Below, in pieces: positions 40,549 through 50,456 of a DNA stretch of 64,000 bases. The translations under genes and the position numbers were made by a program. Source of the DNA: Pelagibacteraceae bacterium AG-345-F21 (lineage in GTDB: Bacteria; Pseudomonadota; Alphaproteobacteria; Pelagibacterales; Pelagibacteraceae); contig QCAW01000003.1 in assembly GCA_003281795.1 (NCBI GenBank), forward strand, positions 1 to 64,000. Reading direction: 5' to 3'. The notes beneath the pieces were generated by a model. It saw nothing but the letters and a program-made list of their open reading frames with translations, had not been told where the DNA came from and searched no databases. Numbering within the stretch: the stretch's first letter is position 1; each line of letters opens with the position of its first letter.

Positions 40549-40643
40549 TTGAGGTTGGCATCAGGTGGATGTTTCATAAACCCGGTCAGGTCTGAAAAGA
40601 AGCAGCCGTAGTGAAAATTATTCAGGTTGTTGCCTGCCTCTTT
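40549..40643 (+). ncRNA. ffs: Signal recognition particle 4.5S RNA, small type
   Basis: ggtcaggtctgaaaagaagcagcc domain IV core; terminal helix gaggttggcatc / gttgcctgcctc. Confidence 0.9.
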
Positions 40644-40646
40644 GAA

Positions 40647-42326
40647 ATGACAAATAAAATTCTAGCTCTTAAATATAGGCCTCAAGAATTTAAAGATTTA
40701 ATTGGTCAAGAGGTCATGACTCAAACGATTACTAATGCCATAAAACTTGGCAAAACTCCAAATGCTTATCTTCTAACCGGAATTAGGGGAGTAGGAAAAA
40801 CAACGACTGCAAGGTTGATTGCAAAAGCTTTAAATTGTCAAAAAAATGAAAATTCTCAAATAACTTGTTCAAGTGAAAAATTTTGCCCTTCATGTCAGGA
40901 AATTATTAATTCTAATCATATGGATATTTTAGAAATGGATGCAGCTTCTAAAACAGGAATCGATGATATAAGAGAAATAATTGAGAATTCGAAATACAGT
41001 CCTACAAGTGCAAAGTTTAAAATATTTATAATAGACGAAGTACACATGCTTTCTAAACAAGCTTTTAATGGTTTGTTAAAAACTTTGGAAGAACCTCCTC
41101 CAAGTTTAAAATTTATTCTTGCAACAACTGAACCAAGAAAAATACCTGTTACCGTACTGTCCAGATGTCAAAGATTTGATCTTAAAAGAGTAAGCGTAGA
41201 AATTTTATGCGATCATTTGAAAAAAATTTGTTTAAAAGAAAATGGGAAAATTTCTGATGAAGCAATCAAGATAATCGCCAGAACATCAGAAGGCTCGGTA
41301 AGAGATGCAATTTCGCTTTTGGATAGAGCTTTAATTTCTCAATCAATAGATAATAATCAAATAGAAGAAAAAGATGTTAGAGACATGCTTGGTTTAGCGG
41401 ATAAAAGCAAAATTATTAATCTTGTTAAAGAGATTTTAAATGGAAATGAAAAATTAGCATTAAAAGAATTAAAAGATTTAATAAACGAGGGCATAGAAGC
41501 TAAAAATTTTCTAAATGATATTTTAGAAGTTCTATACCTTTTCAGCAGGAGAATAAATCTAGGGTCTCTTGAAAAAGATGTAACAATTTCTGAAGCTGAA
41601 ATACAACTTGTAGAAACTTATTCAAAAAATATAGATATGACAGATATAGGCTTGTTTTGGCAACTTACAATAAAAACTATGGATGATTTAAAAATTATTG
41701 GAAATGAAAATTTAGCATTAGAAATGTATGTAATGCAATTAATTCATCTGAAAGATATAGAAAACGAAAAGGTGATTGGAAGCGATACAAACACTGAAGA
41801 GAATGTAAAACCAAAAAATAATTTAATAGGAAAAAAAAGTGATGATAAAATTTTAGAAAACGATCTAACAACTCAAGTAAAAAATCAACTCAAAAGTACG
41901 AATCAAATAAAAACTAACCCAATAAAAAATATTTCTTCAGAGAAAAATAATATTAAAGCAAATATAAAAAGTTTTAAAGATTTAATAGATTTAGCAAATA
42001 GAGAAAAAGAAGTTGAACTTAAGTTTGATTTAGAGCGAAACGTAAAGCTCGTTAGCTTTAATAAAGGTAAAATAGACATTAGTTTTAATGAAAATTTAAA
42101 TAAAAATTTTATAAAAAACCTTACAGAAAAACTTTTGTTATGGACCGGAGAGAGATGGATTATATCTTTAAGCAAAAACAATGATGCAAAAAGTATTTAT
42201 GAGCAAAATATAGAGCAAAAATCTTCAATATTGGACGAGTTTAACAAAGGTAATTTGGCTAAAAAAATTCAAAATGCTTTTCCGGACGCTGAGCTAATTG
42301 ATATTCAGGAGGATAATAATGACTAA
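40647..42326 (+). CDS. dnaX: DNA polymerase III subunits gamma/tau
   Basis: MTNKILALKYRPQEFKDLIGQE start (12 codons 3' of track start, which lies inside ffs); GIRGVGKTTTARLIAKALNC. Confidence 0.96.
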   Translation: MTNKILALKYRPQEFKDLIGQEVMTQTITNAIKLGKTPNAYLLTGIRGVGKTTTARLIAKALNCQKNENSQITCSSEKFCPSCQEIINSNHMDILEMDAASKTGIDDIREIIENSKYSPTSAKFKIFIIDEVHMLSKQAFNGLLKTLEEPPPSLKFILATTEPRKIPVTVLSRCQRFDLKRVSVEILCDHLKKICLKENGKISDEAIKIIARTSEGSVRDAISLLDRALISQSIDNNQIEEKDVRDMLGLADKSKIINLVKEILNGNEKLALKELKDLINEGIEAKNFLNDILEVLYLFSRRINLGSLEKDVTISEAEIQLVETYSKNIDMTDIGLFWQLTIKTMDDLKIIGNENLALEMYVMQLIHLKDIENEKVIGSDTNTEENVKPKNNLIGKKSDDKILENDLTTQVKNQLKSTNQIKTNPIKNISSEKNNIKANIKSFKDLIDLANREKEVELKFDLERNVKLVSFNKGKIDISFNENLNKNFIKNLTEKLLLWTGERWIISLSKNNDAKSIYEQNIEQKSSILDEFNKGNLAKKIQNAFPDAELIDIQEDNND

Positions 42327-42639: not shown

Positions 42640-43244
42640 TGAACAATGATATTCCAGAAATAAATGAGTTAATCTTACAATTTTCTAAACTTCCAGGCTT
42701 AGGCCCGAAATCAGCAAAAAGAATAATCTTAAAATTAATTAACAATAAAGATAATATGGTAAAACCTTTAGCCAAATCTTTAGCTCAAGTTTATAAAAAT
42801 GTTGTTCGTTGTGTAGACTGTGGGAATTTAAAAGTAATAGATAGAGTCTGTATATGCAGTTCTGATAATTCTTATGACAAAATTTGCGTAGTTGAGAATC
42901 TTGCTGATATGTGGGTTATAGACTCAGCAAACATTTATAAAGGTCACTACCATATTTTAGGAGGAACTTTAAATTCAAGTGAGAATTACGAGCAAAAAAA
43001 TTTATTAATTGAGTCTTTAGTAAAAAGAATTAAAAAAAATAATCTTAAAGAGGTAATTATTGCAACAAGCGCTACTGTAGAAGGACAAACTACAGCTCAT
43101 TACATAGAGGATACAATAAAAAACGATAAGATTAAAATAACAAAATTAGCTCAAGGCTTACCTGTTGGTGGAGAGATAGAACAGCTAGACGACGGCACAT
43201 TGCTTTCAGCTTTTAAAAATAGGGTACCAGTTACCGAAAACTAA
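42639..43244 (+). CDS. recR: Recombination protein RecR
   Basis: [15 protein letters not shown]; Cys4 zinc motif; Toprim. Confidence 0.96.
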
Positions 43245-45385
43245 GATATTGCTTTTTTCTCTAATCTCTTTTTATGTAAGAGTGGTTCGGTATATCCCGA
43301 AGGTTGAATTCTACAATTAAAAACTAATTCACAAGCTGCTGAAAAAGCTAAAGAATTATCAAAATTATCAGACATTTTTTTATAATTTGGATCTTTTTCA
43401 TTTTGTTTATCAACTATTTTTGCCATTTTCTTCATAGCTGACATTAATTGATCTTTAGTACAAACTTTATGGTGCAACCAATTTGCTAGATGAGTAGAAG
43501 ATATTCTTAGTGTTGCTCTATCCTCCATTAATCCAACATTGTTTATATCAGGAACTTTCGAACAGCCTACTCCCTGGTCAATCCATCTTACCACATACCC
43601 TAAGATACTTTGTGAATTATTTTCGATCTCTCGATTTATATCTTCTATAGCCCAATTAGGTCTATCTGCTTTGGGTATTTCTAAAAGATCTTCTAATTCA
43701 GCTTTTTTTCGCGTCTTTATTTTTTCTTGTTCATCAAAAACGTTGATTTTATGATAATGAATAGAATGTAAAGTCGCAGCAGTAGGCGATGGAACCCAAG
43801 CACAATTTGCTCCAGATTTCGGATGAATAATTTTTTGATCCATCATATCTTTCATTTTATCGGGCATTGCCCACATTCCTTTACCTATTTGTGCTTTTCC
43901 TGAAAAACCGCACTCTAAACCAATATCTACGTTCCAATTTTCATAAGAATTTAGCCAAGTCGATTTTTTCATTTCACTTTTAAAAATCATGGGGCCAGCT
44001 TCGAATGAAGAAAACATCTCATCACCAGTTCTGTCTAAAAAGCCTGTATTGATAAAAACTATTCTATCCTTTACCTCTCTTATGCACTCTTTTAAGTTAA
44101 CCGTCGTTCTTCTCTCTTCATCCATTATACCTACTTTGATCGAGTATCTTTTCATTTTTAAAACATCCTCAACTTTATTGAACAAAATATTTGTAAAAGC
44201 TACTTCTTCGGGTCCATGCATTTTTGGTTTAACAATGTAAAAGGAGCCTACTCTTGAATTTTTTTTATTCTCAAAATCATGAAGCGCACACAAACTAGAA
44301 ATAAATGCGTCCATTATACCCTCTGGAATTTCAGATCCATCTTTAAGAATAATAGAAGAATTCCTCATTAAATGTCCCACATTTCTATTTAACAATAAAG
44401 CTCTTCCATGAAGTTTTAATTTTTTTCCGTCTTTAGAAATATAATTTCGATCAGAATTAAGTTTTCGTACAAATTTTTTCCCGTTCTTTTCTATATTTGC
44501 TGTTAAATTGCCTTTCATTAATCCTAACCAATTTCTGTAGCATTTTATTTTGTCTTTTGCGTCCACAGCAGCTACAGAGTCCTCGTTATCAACAATAGTT
44601 GAAAGAGCCGACTCAATAACTATATCGGAAATATTTGCTTTGTCTTGCTTTCCGATTCTACTTTTAGAGTCAATAATAATATCTAAATGAAGTTTATTAT
44701 TTTTTAATAAGATTGAGCTGGGATTGGATTTGTCACCATTATATCCAATAAATTTATTTTCATCCTCTAAATAAGTTTCATTATCATTAATTATTATTGA
44801 TAATTTATTACCATTAATTTTCAGTTTTGAAACTTCCTTCCAACTCCCTCTTTGCAAAGAAAAAATCTGATCAAAAAATTCTTTCACGTACGAAATTACT
44901 TTATCTCCTCTTTCTTCTTGATAATTTTGTCCTATTTTTCCGGGGATCACATCAGTTCCATACAATGCGTCGTAAAGACTTCCCCATCGGGCATTAGCTG
45001 CATTCAAAACATATCTTGCATTATCAACTGGAACTACCAACTGAGGACCTGCTATTGAAGAAATTTCATCATCTACATTTGAAGTAGTAATTTTAAAATC
45101 ATTTTTTTTATCAATAATATAAGAAATAGATTTTAAAAATTTTTTGTATTCATTTTTATCAAAATTTTTTCCAACATTATTCAAATGCCAACTATCAATT
45201 TTTTTTTGTATTATTTGTCTCTTATCAAGTAATTCTTTGTTTTTTAAAGATAGATCGTGAACTACTTTTGCAAATTCAATCCAAAACTCATCAGGTTTTA
45301 TTTTTGTCCCAGGAAATACTTCTTTAGTTATAAATTCAAATAAATGTGAATTTATTTTTAATCCATTTTTTTCAACATGATTCAT
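43241..45385 (-). CDS. glcB: Malate synthase G
   Basis: 714 aa; [21 protein letters not shown]. Confidence 0.97.
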
Positions 45386-45670: not shown

Positions 45671-46777
45671 ATGAAAAATTATTTAGAGTTTGAAAAAGAG
45701 ATTAAATCATTAGAAGAAAAAGTTGATGAACTTAAAAGCCCTTTTGGTTCTGAAGGTATATCAGAAGTAGATACTAAAAAAATACAAAACACTCAATTTG
45801 AAATAAATGAAAAACTTAAACAAACTTACGCTGACTTAAACAGTTGGCAAAAAACTTTAGTTGCTAGACACGAAGATAGACCTAAAGCTAATTTTTATAT
45901 TAAAAAAATATTTTCTCAATTTACATTATTGTCTGGAGATAGATATTTTGGTGATGACAAATCAGTTATCGCGGGATTTGGATTAATCGATAATAAATCA
46001 GTTTTAATAATCGGCCAGGAAAAAGGTGAAGATTTAAATACTAGAATAGAACGAAATTTTGGAATGATGAGACCTGAAGGGTATAGAAAGTGTATAAGAT
46101 TAATGAAACTTGCAGATAGATTTCAAATTCCAGTAGTATGTTTTATAGATACCCCTGGCGCTTATCCAGGAATTGGAGCTGAACAAAGAGGTCAAGCATC
46201 AGCGATAGCAAATTCAATTGAATGCTGCATGTCATTAACTGTTCCAAATATTTCAATAATTATTGGAGAAGGAGGATCTGGTGGCGCTATTGCTTTAGCA
46301 TCTTCAAATAAAGTTATAATGTTAGAAAATTCTATTTATTCTGTTATTTCTCCAGAAGGATGTGCATCTATACTATGGAGAGATCCCAATAAATCACTTC
46401 AAGCAGCCGAAGCTATGAAACTGACAGCAAAAGATTTATTAAAGTTAGGAATCATTGATGAAATTATTTCAGAACCTTTAGGTGGCGCACATAGAGACCC
46501 TGAAGAAATTGCAAATAATATAAAACAATCAATAATTAATAATTTAAAAAAATTTGAAAATTTATCAAAAGAAGAAATTTACGATCAGAGAAAATCTAAA
46601 TTTTTACAAATCGGAAGAGACAGGGGCTTTAGCAAATCATCAAATTTAAATGACTCAGGTTTAAGTTATAAAGGATCATCTTATATGAAAATTAAATCTC
46701 ACATAACGAAAAACCAATTAATTTATCTGGGCATAGGTATAGTAATAATAGCAAGTTTGGTGTCTATTATTTACTAA
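45671..46777 (+). CDS. accA: Acetyl-CoA carboxylase carboxyltransferase subunit alpha with C-terminal TM extension
   Basis: GEGGSGGAIALASSNKV; ISPEGCASILWRD; hydrophobic tail LIYLGIGIVIIASLVSIIY. Confidence 0.95.
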   Translation: MKNYLEFEKEIKSLEEKVDELKSPFGSEGISEVDTKKIQNTQFEINEKLKQTYADLNSWQKTLVARHEDRPKANFYIKKIFSQFTLLSGDRYFGDDKSVIAGFGLIDNKSVLIIGQEKGEDLNTRIERNFGMMRPEGYRKCIRLMKLADRFQIPVVCFIDTPGAYPGIGAEQRGQASAIANSIECCMSLTVPNISIIIGEGGSGGAIALASSNKVIMLENSIYSVISPEGCASILWRDPNKSLQAAEAMKLTAKDLLKLGIIDEIISEPLGGAHRDPEEIANNIKQSIINNLKKFENLSKEEIYDQRKSKFLQIGRDRGFSKSSNLNDSGLSYKGSSYMKIKSHITKNQLIYLGIGIVIIASLVSIIY

Positions 46778-46858
46778 TTACTGTTGCAAAAAGACAATAT
46801 TCAAAATTTTTTTAATCTTCTATTGACATTTAAACAACAAATCTATTTAAGGTTCACT

Positions 46859-46875
46859 GTTAGCAAATAGCTAAC
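46859..46875 (+). promoter_or_regulatory. Hairpin in cold-shock gene 5' region
   Basis: GTTAGC-aaata-GCTAAC inverted repeat upstream of the csp start. Confidence 0.45.
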
Positions 46876-46908
46876 TAAAGTTAATAAAAATAAGGAAAAG
46901 TAAACAAT

Positions 46909-47121
46909 ATGAGTACACTAAAAGGAAAAGTAAAGTGGTTCAACGGAACTAAAGGATATGGTTTCATTGAAAGAGAAGACAAAGAAAAAGACGTGTTCGT
47001 TCATTCTTCAGCAGTTAGAGAAGCTGGTTTAAAATACTTAAACGAAGGTGATGAGTTAACGTTTGAAGTGGAGAATGGAGAAAAAGGTCCTTCCGCAGTT
47101 AAATTGCAGAAAACATCTTAA
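46909..47121 (+). CDS. Cold-shock domain protein
   Basis: [19 protein letters not shown]...DVFVHSSAV. Confidence 0.96.
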
Positions 47122-47146
47122 ATCTTATTTCCAAAACACAAATTAA

Positions 47147-47180
47147 CGGGACATAAAGCTTTAATTAGTTTTTTGTCCCG
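47147..47180 (+). terminator. Possible hairpin after the cold-shock gene
   Basis: cgggaca...tgtcccg inverted repeat with long loop, no T-tract afterwards. Confidence 0.45.
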
Positions 47181-47351
47181 ATAATTTCCTTGAAAAAGAC
47201 ACAATTATTTCTTACATAAGCAACAATGATTATTGTTAACAGATCTTCTACTTTTAAATCTCATTCGCACAGAATGCACGCTAGGCTATTGCTTAGCTTA
47301 TAATCATAAATATATAAATTTAATAAAAATTAAGATAAATATAGAAAGGAC

Positions 47352-47428
47352 GCAGCAGTAGCTCAGTTGGTTAGAGCACTAGTTTGTGGAACTAGGGGTC
47401 GGTGGTTCGAGTCCACCCTGCTGTACCA
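47352..47428 (+). tRNA. tRNA-His (GTG anticodon), CCA encoded
   Basis: Acceptor gcagcag/ctgctgt, anticodon loop ttGTGga in ctagt/actag stem, T-arm ggtggttcgagtccacc. Confidence 0.95.
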
Positions 47429-47432
47429 AAAA

Positions 47433-48767
47433 ATGACGAAAGAAAAAACTAATAAACCTTCAAAAGATTTACCTTTAGGGTTTGTTGACAGAAGTGAAAA
47501 AGAACTACTTGTTAGAGATTTCATAACTTCAAAGATTAAAGAGGTTATGGTTAAGTATGGATTCAAGTACCTCGAAACTCCAAGCTTCGAGTATACTGAT
47601 AGTATTGGAAAATTTCTACCTGACAAAGATCGACCAGATGAAGGAGTTTTTTCGTTTCAAGATGAAAACAAATGGCTTTCTTTGAGATACGATCTTACTG
47701 CTCCACTGGCTCGTTATGTTGCAAAAAATTATTTAGAAATTCCTAAACCATTTAAAAGATATCAACTTGGTACGGTATGGAGAAATGAAAAACCAGGACC
47801 CGGCAGATTTAGAGAGTTTTTACAATTTGATGCTGATTTCGTTGGAACAAAAAGCTTACAAGCAGATGCTGAACTGTGCGTAATGATATCAGAAATTATT
47901 GAAAAGTGTGGATTAAGTAAATCAGAATATATTATAAAAATTTCATCAAGAAAAATTACTGACTCAATTTTTAAAAAAATTAATTTAGAAAATCCCGAAC
48001 AAAAGCTAACTACTTTAAGAGCTTTAGACAAAATTGATCGATTAGGGTGGGATGGTGTTAAACAATTATTAGGCGAAGGGCGAAAAGATAAATCTGGAGA
48101 CTTTACTAAAGGGGCCAACTTAAGTTCAAACAATATTGAAACTATTGAAAAAGAATTAAAAAAAAAAATACCGGAGACAGAGGATCTGAAAGAGATACTG
48201 AGAATATTTGAAGATTACAACTTTAAGAATTTTGAATTTGACCCATCTGTTATAAGAGGTCTTGAGTATTATACTGGTCCAATATTTGAAGTTAATTTAA
48301 AATTTGATGTTAAAAATGACAAAGGACAAGTTATTCAGTTTGGCTCTGTTGGAGGTGGAGGAAGATATGATAATTTAGTTAGTAATTTTGGAAATTATGA
48401 TGCTCCTGCAACAGGCATTTCAATAGGTTTAGATAGATTAGTGTATGCTTTATTGCAAAAAAAAGAGTTTAAAATCAAACAAGCAAAACCTGTTGTAATT
48501 TGCGTTTTTGATAAAAGTTTAATTAAGGAATATATAAAAATCCAAAATGTTTTAAGAAGTGCAGATCTGAGTGTTGAAATTTACCCAGGTGATGGAAAAT
48601 TAAAAAAACAGATGGAATATGCAAATAAAATAAAATCACCTGCTGTAATTCTTTATGGCGAAGATGAACTTAAATCAGGCAAACTAACCTTAAGAGATCT
48701 TAATTCCGGTAACGAAAAATCAATAACAATTAGCGATTTAGTAAATGAAATCAAAAAAATTATCTGA
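47433..48767 (+). CDS. hisS: Histidyl-tRNA synthetase
   Basis: Class II aaRS motifs; GLEYYTGPIFEV; ATG 4 nt after tRNA CCA (track start 47367 is inside the tRNA). Confidence 0.94.
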   Translation: MTKEKTNKPSKDLPLGFVDRSEKELLVRDFITSKIKEVMVKYGFKYLETPSFEYTDSIGKFLPDKDRPDEGVFSFQDENKWLSLRYDLTAPLARYVAKNYLEIPKPFKRYQLGTVWRNEKPGPGRFREFLQFDADFVGTKSLQADAELCVMISEIIEKCGLSKSEYIIKISSRKITDSIFKKINLENPEQKLTTLRALDKIDRLGWDGVKQLLGEGRKDKSGDFTKGANLSSNNIETIEKELKKKIPETEDLKEILRIFEDYNFKNFEFDPSVIRGLEYYTGPIFEVNLKFDVKNDKGQVIQFGSVGGGGRYDNLVSNFGNYDAPATGISIGLDRLVYALLQKKEFKIKQAKPVVICVFDKSLIKEYIKIQNVLRSADLSVEIYPGDGKLKKQMEYANKIKSPAVILYGEDELKSGKLTLRDLNSGNEKSITISDLVNEIKKII

Positions 48768-49782
48768 AAAAATAATTAAAACTTTCAAAAGTAATGGCTT
48801 CATTTTATCTGAGCCTGATGTACTTTTAGACTCTGAATATATAATACAAAGATCAGGTGAAAAGTTTAAAAGTTCAATGTTTACTTTTGAAAATGAAGAC
48901 GGAAAAACGATGTGTCTACGACCTGATCTGACTGTAGCGTCTTGTATCAAATACTTACAAAAAAAATCCTCATCAAAAATTTACTATTCAGGAAAAGCTT
49001 TTAGAAGATCAAACAAAAAAGGCTCTGAATTTGTTTATGATCAATTAGGCATTGAAATTTTTGGTTCAAAAAATCAAGTTCAAGATGATTTCAAGGTTAT
49101 TAATACTATTCTTAATTTAGCAAAAAAAATTAAAAATACGAAAATTCAGATTAAAGTTGGAGACATAAGTTTATTTAAAAGTTTGATCAATTCTCTTGAT
49201 ATGCCAGAAAGATGGAGGTTAAGATTAATAAGACATTTTTGGAAGCCTAAATATTTTGACGAGCTTTTAAAAAGATTAGAAAAAAATTCAGATATTGATC
49301 TAGTATCATTTGATACAGATAAAAAAAGGTTTTTTGAAATGAAAAAAATGGATCAAACCAAAATTGTTGCAGGACGATCGATTTCGGAAATTTTAAAAAG
49401 ATTTGATAAAAAAATAAAAGATCCTAGATCATTTAATGAAGGTAAGCAAATTGTGAAAATTATAAGATCATTTCTAAAAATTAATTGTAAGTTGTCTCAA
49501 TTAGATAAGAAATTATCATATTTTTCTAAAAAATATAATCTTAAAAAAAATATTTTTAAAGATTTAAAATCTATTAAAAATTTAAAAAAATTAAACCAAG
49601 AAGTAAAATTTATTTCAGATTTTGGAAGAGATTTAGAATATTATACTGGAATAGTATTTGAAGTTTTTGCAAACAAAAAAGAAATTGCCAGAGGCGGTAG
49701 GTATGATGATTTACTAAAAAGTTTAGGGGCAAAAAAAAATATACAAGCTGTAGGAGCTGCAATTAATTTAAATAATTTATGA
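48745..49782 (+). CDS. hisZ: ATP phosphoribosyltransferase regulatory subunit HisZ
   Basis: HisS-like protein without anticodon domain, LRPDLTVASCIKYL, followed by hisG. Confidence 0.9.
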   Translation: MKSKKLSEKIIKTFKSNGFILSEPDVLLDSEYIIQRSGEKFKSSMFTFENEDGKTMCLRPDLTVASCIKYLQKKSSSKIYYSGKAFRRSNKKGSEFVYDQLGIEIFGSKNQVQDDFKVINTILNLAKKIKNTKIQIKVGDISLFKSLINSLDMPERWRLRLIRHFWKPKYFDELLKRLEKNSDIDLVSFDTDKKRFFEMKKMDQTKIVAGRSISEILKRFDKKIKDPRSFNEGKQIVKIIRSFLKINCKLSQLDKKLSYFSKKYNLKKNIFKDLKSIKNLKKLNQEVKFISDFGRDLEYYTGIVFEVFANKKEIARGGRYDDLLKSLGAKKNIQAVGAAINLNNL

Positions 49783-50456
49783 ACAATATAATCACCATAG
49801 GAATACCGAGCAAAGGACGTTTAAAAGATAAAGCAAACAGTTTTTTTAAAGATAGTGGTTTAAAAATACTTCAGAGCAACAAAGAAAGAAATTATTTTGC
49901 TTCTGTTGAAAATAAACCGAATATAAAAATTATTTATTTACATGCTAAAGAAATTATTCAAAGACTAGGGGATGGAACTTTAGATATAGGCATATCAGGT
50001 TTAGATCTTCTTAATGAGTCAGCAAAAAATTTAAGCGATAAGATTAATATTAGACATAAGCTCAATTTTGGAAAGGCAAATTTAGTTGTAGCTGTACCAG
50101 ATGATTGGATAGATGTTCAAACAATCGCAGATTTAGAAGAAGTATCATTTGATATAAGATCAAAACGAAATTCTAGATTAAGAGTTGCAACAAAATATCC
50201 AAATCTAACTAATGATTTTTTAATTTCTAAAGGTGTTACTCAATATAAGTTAATACCTAGTCTAGGTGCTACAGAGACCTATCCTTTTATAGGATCTTCA
50301 GAAATTATTACTGATATAACTTCTACTGGAAAAACTTTAGCTGATAATAATTTAAGAGTTTTAAAAGATGGGCAGATTTTAAATTCAACAGCGTGTTTGT
50401 TTGTTGCAAAAAAAAAGGCTGCAAATTTGCAGCCTTTTTTAAATTCATTGGGTTGA
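49779..50456 (+). CDS. hisG: ATP phosphoribosyltransferase (short form)
   Basis: ITIGIPSKGRLKD; GISGLDLL; 225 aa. Confidence 0.94.
   Translation: MNNIITIGIPSKGRLKDKANSFFKDSGLKILQSNKERNYFASVENKPNIKIIYLHAKEIIQRLGDGTLDIGISGLDLLNESAKNLSDKINIRHKLNFGKANLVVAVPDDWIDVQTIADLEEVSFDIRSKRNSRLRVATKYPNLTNDFLISKGVTQYKLIPSLGATETYPFIGSSEIITDITSTGKTLADNNLRVLKDGQILNSTACLFVAKKKAANLQPFLNSLG
50411..50440. terminator. Perfect palindromic bidirectional terminator inside hisG 3' end
   Basis: aaaaaaggctgcaaatttgcagcctttttt; GC-rich stem with T6 on both strands. Confidence 0.88.

Follow-up and report, generated by a model that had tools for sequence, protein, structure and literature searches.

The tRNA-His gene directly precedes the histidyl-tRNA synthetase gene across SAR11 genomes and may set the 5' end of its message

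We analyzed a 64,000-nt stretch (the window) of the SAR11 (Pelagibacteraceae) draft genome AG-345-F21 (975 kb, 31 contigs), together with related genomes. We compared 130 distinct junctions, drawn from at least 12 genera; in all of them the tRNA-His gene ends 3–6 nt before the start codon of hisS, the gene for its cognate synthetase. We favor, with a probability of roughly 0.6, a reading in which the tRNA and hisS form one transcription unit, RNase E cuts the spacer, the resulting hisS mRNA is near-leaderless, and the spacing is held by the limits that cleavage and the AUG impose. Features of the locus, and the other tRNA genes of this genome with a similar layout, are listed in Table 1.

Table 1. 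Features of the tRNA-His–hisS locus (positions in the window) and tRNA genes of AG-345-F21 with a coding start close downstream
Feature	Position	Strand	Gap to coding start	Basis or remark
Conserved hairpin GCTAGGC-TATT-GCTTAGC, 7 bp, RNA-type	47280..47297	+		Family comparison
-10-like element GATAAA (TAATATAAA in most relatives)	47334..47339	+		Family alignment of upstream DNA; here 12–18 nt before the tRNA
tRNA-His(GTG)	47352..47428	+	4 nt (hisS)	ARAGORN and Rfam RF00005; CCA encoded; discriminator A73, no G-1
AAAA spacer	47429..47432	+		Proposed site of endonuclease cleavage, its remainder forming the mRNA leader; predicted single-stranded
hisS, histidyl-tRNA synthetase, ATG start	47433..48767	+		PF13393 and PF03129
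hisZ, HisRS-like regulatory subunit of ATP phosphoribosyltransferase	48745..49782	+		PF13393 only, without anticodon domain
hisG, ATP phosphoribosyltransferase	49779..50456	+		PF01634; 4-nt overlap with hisZ
tRNA-Leu(caa)			4 nt (CDS)	
tRNA-Met			5 nt (typA)	
tRNA-Pro			6 nt (3-hydroxyacyl-CoA dehydrogenase)	
tRNA-Gln			7 nt (CCA-adding enzyme/poly(A) polymerase)	
tRNA-Gly			8 nt (pterin dehydratase)	
tRNA-Leu(taa)			8 nt (NAD kinase)	
tRNA-Trp			9 nt (secE)	
tRNA-Leu(tag)			9 nt (tig, trigger factor)	
tRNA-Arg			15 nt (galE)	

A first-pass annotation made from the letters alone had placed the CCA end of tRNA-His 4 nt before the hisS ATG, and ARAGORN, Rfam and a reading of the sequence all confirm this. 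The junction runs ...CTGTA, CCA (47426–47428), AAAA (47429–47432), ATG (47433), and the RF00005 match (70.6 bits) reaches the discriminator at 47425. A73 without G-1 is the derived alphaproteobacterial form of tRNA-His, described for most SAR11 strains (PMC3937112). A single tRNA-His gene was found in this genome, as in the relative G021. The 444-aa hisS product matches both the HisRS core and the anticodon domains, and the start of hisZ overlaps the end of hisS. The histidine-centred locus noted in the same annotation is real, with hisZ present in all 110 relatives scored and hisG in 103 of them, some of the contigs being short.

The hisS frame stays open upstream into the tRNA (TTG at 47367), and the next in-frame ATG, GTG or TTG downstream lies far within the protein. 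A start inside the tRNA was rejected, as the gaps of 3, 4, 5 and 6 nt in relatives shift the frame; the upstream frame is not conserved, and thus ATG 47433 is the start. The first-pass annotation was right that no Shine-Dalgarno sequence precedes hisS, but this is uninformative: 57 of the 66 genes in the window have none, so that hisS is ordinary in this respect, and we discarded the missing motif as a special feature of this gene. Shine-Dalgarno-like motifs occur before the other nine, against a shuffled mean of 5.5, and the 16S rRNA 3' end retains the anti-Shine-Dalgarno sequence (ACCTCCTTT). Both the spacer and the opening codons are rich in A, and the first 22 nt 3' of the tRNA are predicted to be unpaired once the tRNA is removed. 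An AUG start and a predicted unstructured 5' end are features expected of a leaderless mRNA.

The arrangement is found in every family locus checked that has upstream sequence, and is thus more than chance. Among the 130 junctions, a set from which duplicates were dropped and in which the downstream ORF was confirmed as HisRS, the gap is 4 nt in 105, 5 nt in 20, 3 nt in four and 6 nt in one, and the start codon is ATG in every junction tallied. Two overlapping sets give the same picture: all 57 loci with upstream sequence at the genus level carry tRNA-His directly 5' of hisS (4 nt in 52, 3 nt in three, 5 nt in two), as do all 80 named Pelagibacteraceae contigs (4 nt in 76, 3 nt in four). Genus-by-genus sampling of the family brought in more genera, whose gaps measure 4 or 5 nt and in one case 6 nt. 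Where a contig end falls inside the tRNA (locus L335), the same CCA is still followed by a 5-nt gap. The first-pass annotation had taken a gap that varies in close relatives as evidence against its proposal, and the variation proved to be confined to this narrow range.

The spacing also persists where the flanking genes have changed. In the g7/g239 lineage, tRNA-His is strongly altered and HisRS identity is about 45%, with the gap still 4–5 nt. ARAGORN missed some of the diverged tRNA-His genes (L306:1420-1493, L359–L362); one g7/g239 tRNA-His that was tested is missed by ARAGORN and accepted by RF00005 at 50.6 bits, and has a 4-nt gap. Conservation of the spacer itself amounts to A-richness and nothing beyond. 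Gaps of 0–2 nt and of more than 6 nt were never found among these junctions, which fits a two-sided limit on spacer length.

These data bear on whether a promoter within the tRNA gene might generate a separate leaderless hisS transcript. Other alphaproteobacteria are rich in leaderless transcripts, many of them at 5'-triphosphate ends (PMC4117421), yet the would-be -10 box here (CTGTAC, 47421–47426) matches at one of six positions, and in the g7 lineage the tRNA sequence has been rewritten while the gap is unchanged. A consensus scan of the + strand from 46536 to 47899 found no promoter-like site; it is weak evidence, as it also misses the presumed upstream promoter. Thus, the internal promoter that the first-pass annotation had named as a possible objection to its proposal did not appear between the tRNA and hisS. 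We consider such a promoter very improbable, and rejected it on the sequence and on the variation of the tRNA despite a steady gap.

Co-transcription of tRNA-His and hisS is very likely, because 3–6 nt leave no space for a promoter, a terminator or a Shine-Dalgarno sequence, and in AG-345-F21 sequence reading and the promoter and terminator scans reveal neither promoter nor terminator in the 4-nt spacer. A probable promoter for both genes is the -10-like element 12–20 nt upstream of tRNA-His, which the sigma-70 consensus scan missed. Further upstream (55–72 nt from the tRNA) lies the conserved hairpin, of the family form GCTARGC-N4-GCTYRGC, with one site in the window. It is recognisable in about 128 of 133 analysed loci; the score threshold was reached in 130 of 133, a few of these being unrelated stems, versus 4 of 133 shuffles. 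Most stem differences are compatible with G.U pairing, an argument for action as RNA rather than as a DNA operator, and the hairpin could serve the tRNA-His–hisS unit as an upstream terminator or as part of its leader. A separate hairpin with a U-rich 3' side (CGGGACA...TGTCCCG, 47147–47180), behind a cold-shock gene, is a candidate terminator isolating the tRNA-His unit. Elsewhere in this region, a glycine riboswitch aptamer (RF00504, 45467–45554, minus strand) is found directly upstream of a minus-strand, malate synthase-like ORF of 714 aa (43241–45385).

A short distance between tRNA and coding sequence is a general habit of SAR11 genomes, without histidine specificity. In AG-345-F21, 10 of 27 distinct tRNAs have a same-strand coding start 4–15 nt downstream, and none has one closer. 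The relative G021 has ten comparable cases (4–19 nt), in which some of the same tRNAs precede different genes. This generality weakens any histidine-only account. The gene behind tRNA-Gln again belongs to tRNA maturation, and its gap is 7 nt in AG-345-F21 (locus L018) and 5 nt in G021 (locus L199). A second kind of stable RNA also abuts a coding start: at 40550–40649 in the window, the SRP RNA (RF00169) ends at 40644, with 2 nt between it and the dnaX ATG at 40647, and in Caulobacter dnaX has a known leaderless mRNA (PMC4117421).

Streamlining alone could yield short gaps, which is a point against the reading we favor. Under pure compaction, deletions would have drawn hisS to the processing limit, initiation would be of the ordinary Shine-Dalgarno-independent kind, and the spacing would have no regulatory role. 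The ten tRNAs with coding starts 4–15 nt away and the scarcity of Shine-Dalgarno sequences argue for this, as does the sister family of the same order, which displays a likely precursor state. There, in the six genomes with both genes in view (L371–L373, L375, L377 and L378), tRNA-His lies 1.4–2.4 kb before hisS; the tRNA is followed by a transporter-like gene on the minus strand, about 1.2 kb long, hisS has its own upstream region, and in five of the six tRNA-Phe stands 5 nt before tRNA-His. The Pelagibacteraceae fusion therefore looks like a product of compaction. On the simplest path, whose direction we infer, the family lost the middle gene and the hisS promoter, after which hisS would have relied on the promoter of the tRNA. 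The view that the linkage is an old trait of the class was not supported, given the distance in the sister family and hisS upstream regions without an adjacent tRNA-His in the non-SAR11 alphaproteobacteria examined; a class-wide search with tRNA-His DNA was insufficiently specific beyond SAR11.

Against compaction as the whole explanation stands the steadiness of the hisS gap, which is maintained family-wide and exceeds that of two control gaps in the same genomes. Within the genus, the tRNA-Leu(tag)–tig gap is about 5–10 nt (one is 34 nt) and the tRNA-Trp–secE gap 7–18 nt. On one hisS tree of 16 shared genomes, built from 500 nt and with many weakly supported branches, a single length change suffices to explain the hisS gaps, whereas tig requires at least 10 and secE at least 8. 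When spacer length is taken into account, the hisS rate is about fivefold lower than that of tig and only about twofold lower than that of secE, whose scaled rate predicts about 2.4 hisS changes where one is seen. As a 4-nt spacer offers few sites for insertions and deletions, the constraint is clear only against tig. We consider it likely, not proven, that the hisS gap length is under constraint and steadier than those of tig and secE. In addition, a folded tRNA 4 nt 5' of the AUG would be expected to block 30S binding unless it is removed. Overall, we regard compaction without any role for the spacing as rather unlikely.

In the reading we favor, a promoter upstream of the tRNA would drive a single tRNA-His–hisS–hisZ–hisG transcription unit. 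On a shared transcript each tRNA-His precursor is also a hisS pre-mRNA, and the tRNA could mature only if the RNA were severed somewhere from its CCA end to the hisS AUG. The endonuclease responsible, most probably RNase E, would act in the unstructured, A-rich spacer, and exonucleases would trim the 3' side of the tRNA back to CCA. The downstream piece would be a near-leaderless hisS–hisZ–hisG mRNA with a 5' monophosphate and a leader of 0–4 nt, translated without a Shine-Dalgarno sequence; we expect spacer cleavage to be the main source of translated hisS mRNA, with somewhat better than even odds. This layout, common to many SAR11 tRNAs, would have arisen by genome compaction, and the hisS spacing would vary so little because cleavage sets a lower limit on its length and the need for a usable AUG an upper one. 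What the sequences establish is the layout, its conservation, the low rate at which the gap changes length and the set of enzymes; co-transcription, the place of cleavage, leaderless translation and the cause of the constraint are inferred.

RNase E is favored as the cutter on the enzyme inventory: all 14 genomes searched encode RNase E/G, and none has a canonical RNase Z match that attains the curated cut-off. We rejected RNase Z, whose only candidates were weak metallo-beta-lactamase matches far below the cut-off, those inspected adjoining metG and tatD homologues. Elsewhere among bacteria, tRNAs with an encoded CCA are released by a cut a few nucleotides past their 3' end, followed by trimming (PMC3848588, PMC4681348); single-stranded regions beside tRNAs are sites of RNase E action (PMC3985628). 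The 375 leaderless mRNAs of Caulobacter are translated with an efficiency similar to that of led ones (PMC4117421). That RNase E cuts near the AUG in SAR11 is proposed by analogy, and a point against it is that cuts within hisS would destroy the message.

The pairing of a tRNA with its own synthetase raises the question of feedback. HisRS might bind tRNA-His in the nascent mRNA, speeding or slowing its processing, or charging might feed back on hisS, hisZ and hisG. The cognate pairing is maintained family-wide and hisZ and hisG belong to the unit; on the other hand, non-cognate genes show the same layout, the spacer is conserved only in A-richness, and the fused pair seems derived from near neighbours. 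The Rfam scan found no T-box or other leader family at the locus, and no binding element or charging-dependent switch is seen beyond the tRNA. Self-regulation of hisS is thus possible but unsupported, and we consider it improbable. Similarly, the suggestion of the first-pass annotation that tRNA-His processing specifically sets HisRS synthesis found no support, since at least nine other tRNAs precede unrelated genes in the same way and the absence of a Shine-Dalgarno sequence is normal.

SAR11 bacteria are among the most abundant free-living cells. The tRNA-His–hisS locus is a concrete example, found throughout a family of free-living bacteria, of a tRNA gene that apparently directs 5' processing of a protein-coding message, and the protein is the cognate synthetase. 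If our reading is correct, limitation of synthetase synthesis by tRNA maturation becomes directly testable. Models of start codons, promoters and leaders taken from other bacteria may misfit SAR11 genomes. The literature searched, with subscription journals mostly outside it, yielded no description of tRNA punctuation or of a tRNA-His–hisS fusion in SAR11.

Several known systems share parts of this arrangement. The tufB operon and secG-leuU of E. coli are bacterial tRNA-mRNA dicistronic operons, in which a shared transcript is separated by processing, as we propose for SAR11. However, as usually described, those operons retain spacers and ribosome-binding sites, whereas the SAR11 unit has 3–6 nt, a predicted leaderless message and a cognate synthetase. 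The thrS operator of E. coli and T-box leaders control synthetase genes through tRNA-like leaders. They likewise place tRNA-related RNA in the leader of a synthetase gene; in SAR11 this RNA is the functional tRNA gene itself, with no binding or switching element seen. Caulobacter leaderless mRNAs (dnaX, hemE and others; PMC4117421) resemble the predicted hisS message in beginning with, or almost with, the AUG, in lacking a Shine-Dalgarno sequence and in having an unstructured start; they were identified by mapping of transcript 5' ends, 5'-triphosphate sites among them, whereas the short hisS leader is predicted from tRNA processing.

The known case of tRNA punctuation is that of mitochondria (PMC11144196, PMC8437803). 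There, as here, a tRNA lies directly before a coding sequence, and cutting it out would fix where the mRNA begins and yield a message with little or no leader. The SAR11 junctions share a spacer with no room for a leader or promoter (all 130) and the wide occurrence within the genome (10 of 27 tRNAs). On the other hand, SAR11 is free-living, its CCA is encoded, the 3' endonuclease is likely RNase E, canonical RNase Z not having been found, and the layout covers about one third of the tRNAs rather than the whole genome. We suggest, tentatively and as the less likely outcome, that SAR11 has a mitochondria-like punctuation system in which RNase E, cutting behind tRNAs, makes many near-leaderless mRNAs, and one hisS message per tRNA-His released ties both HisRS and the initial step of histidine synthesis to the supply of tRNA-His. 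If this holds, SAR11 would show how compaction of a genome can by itself give rise to gene expression of the mitochondrial kind.
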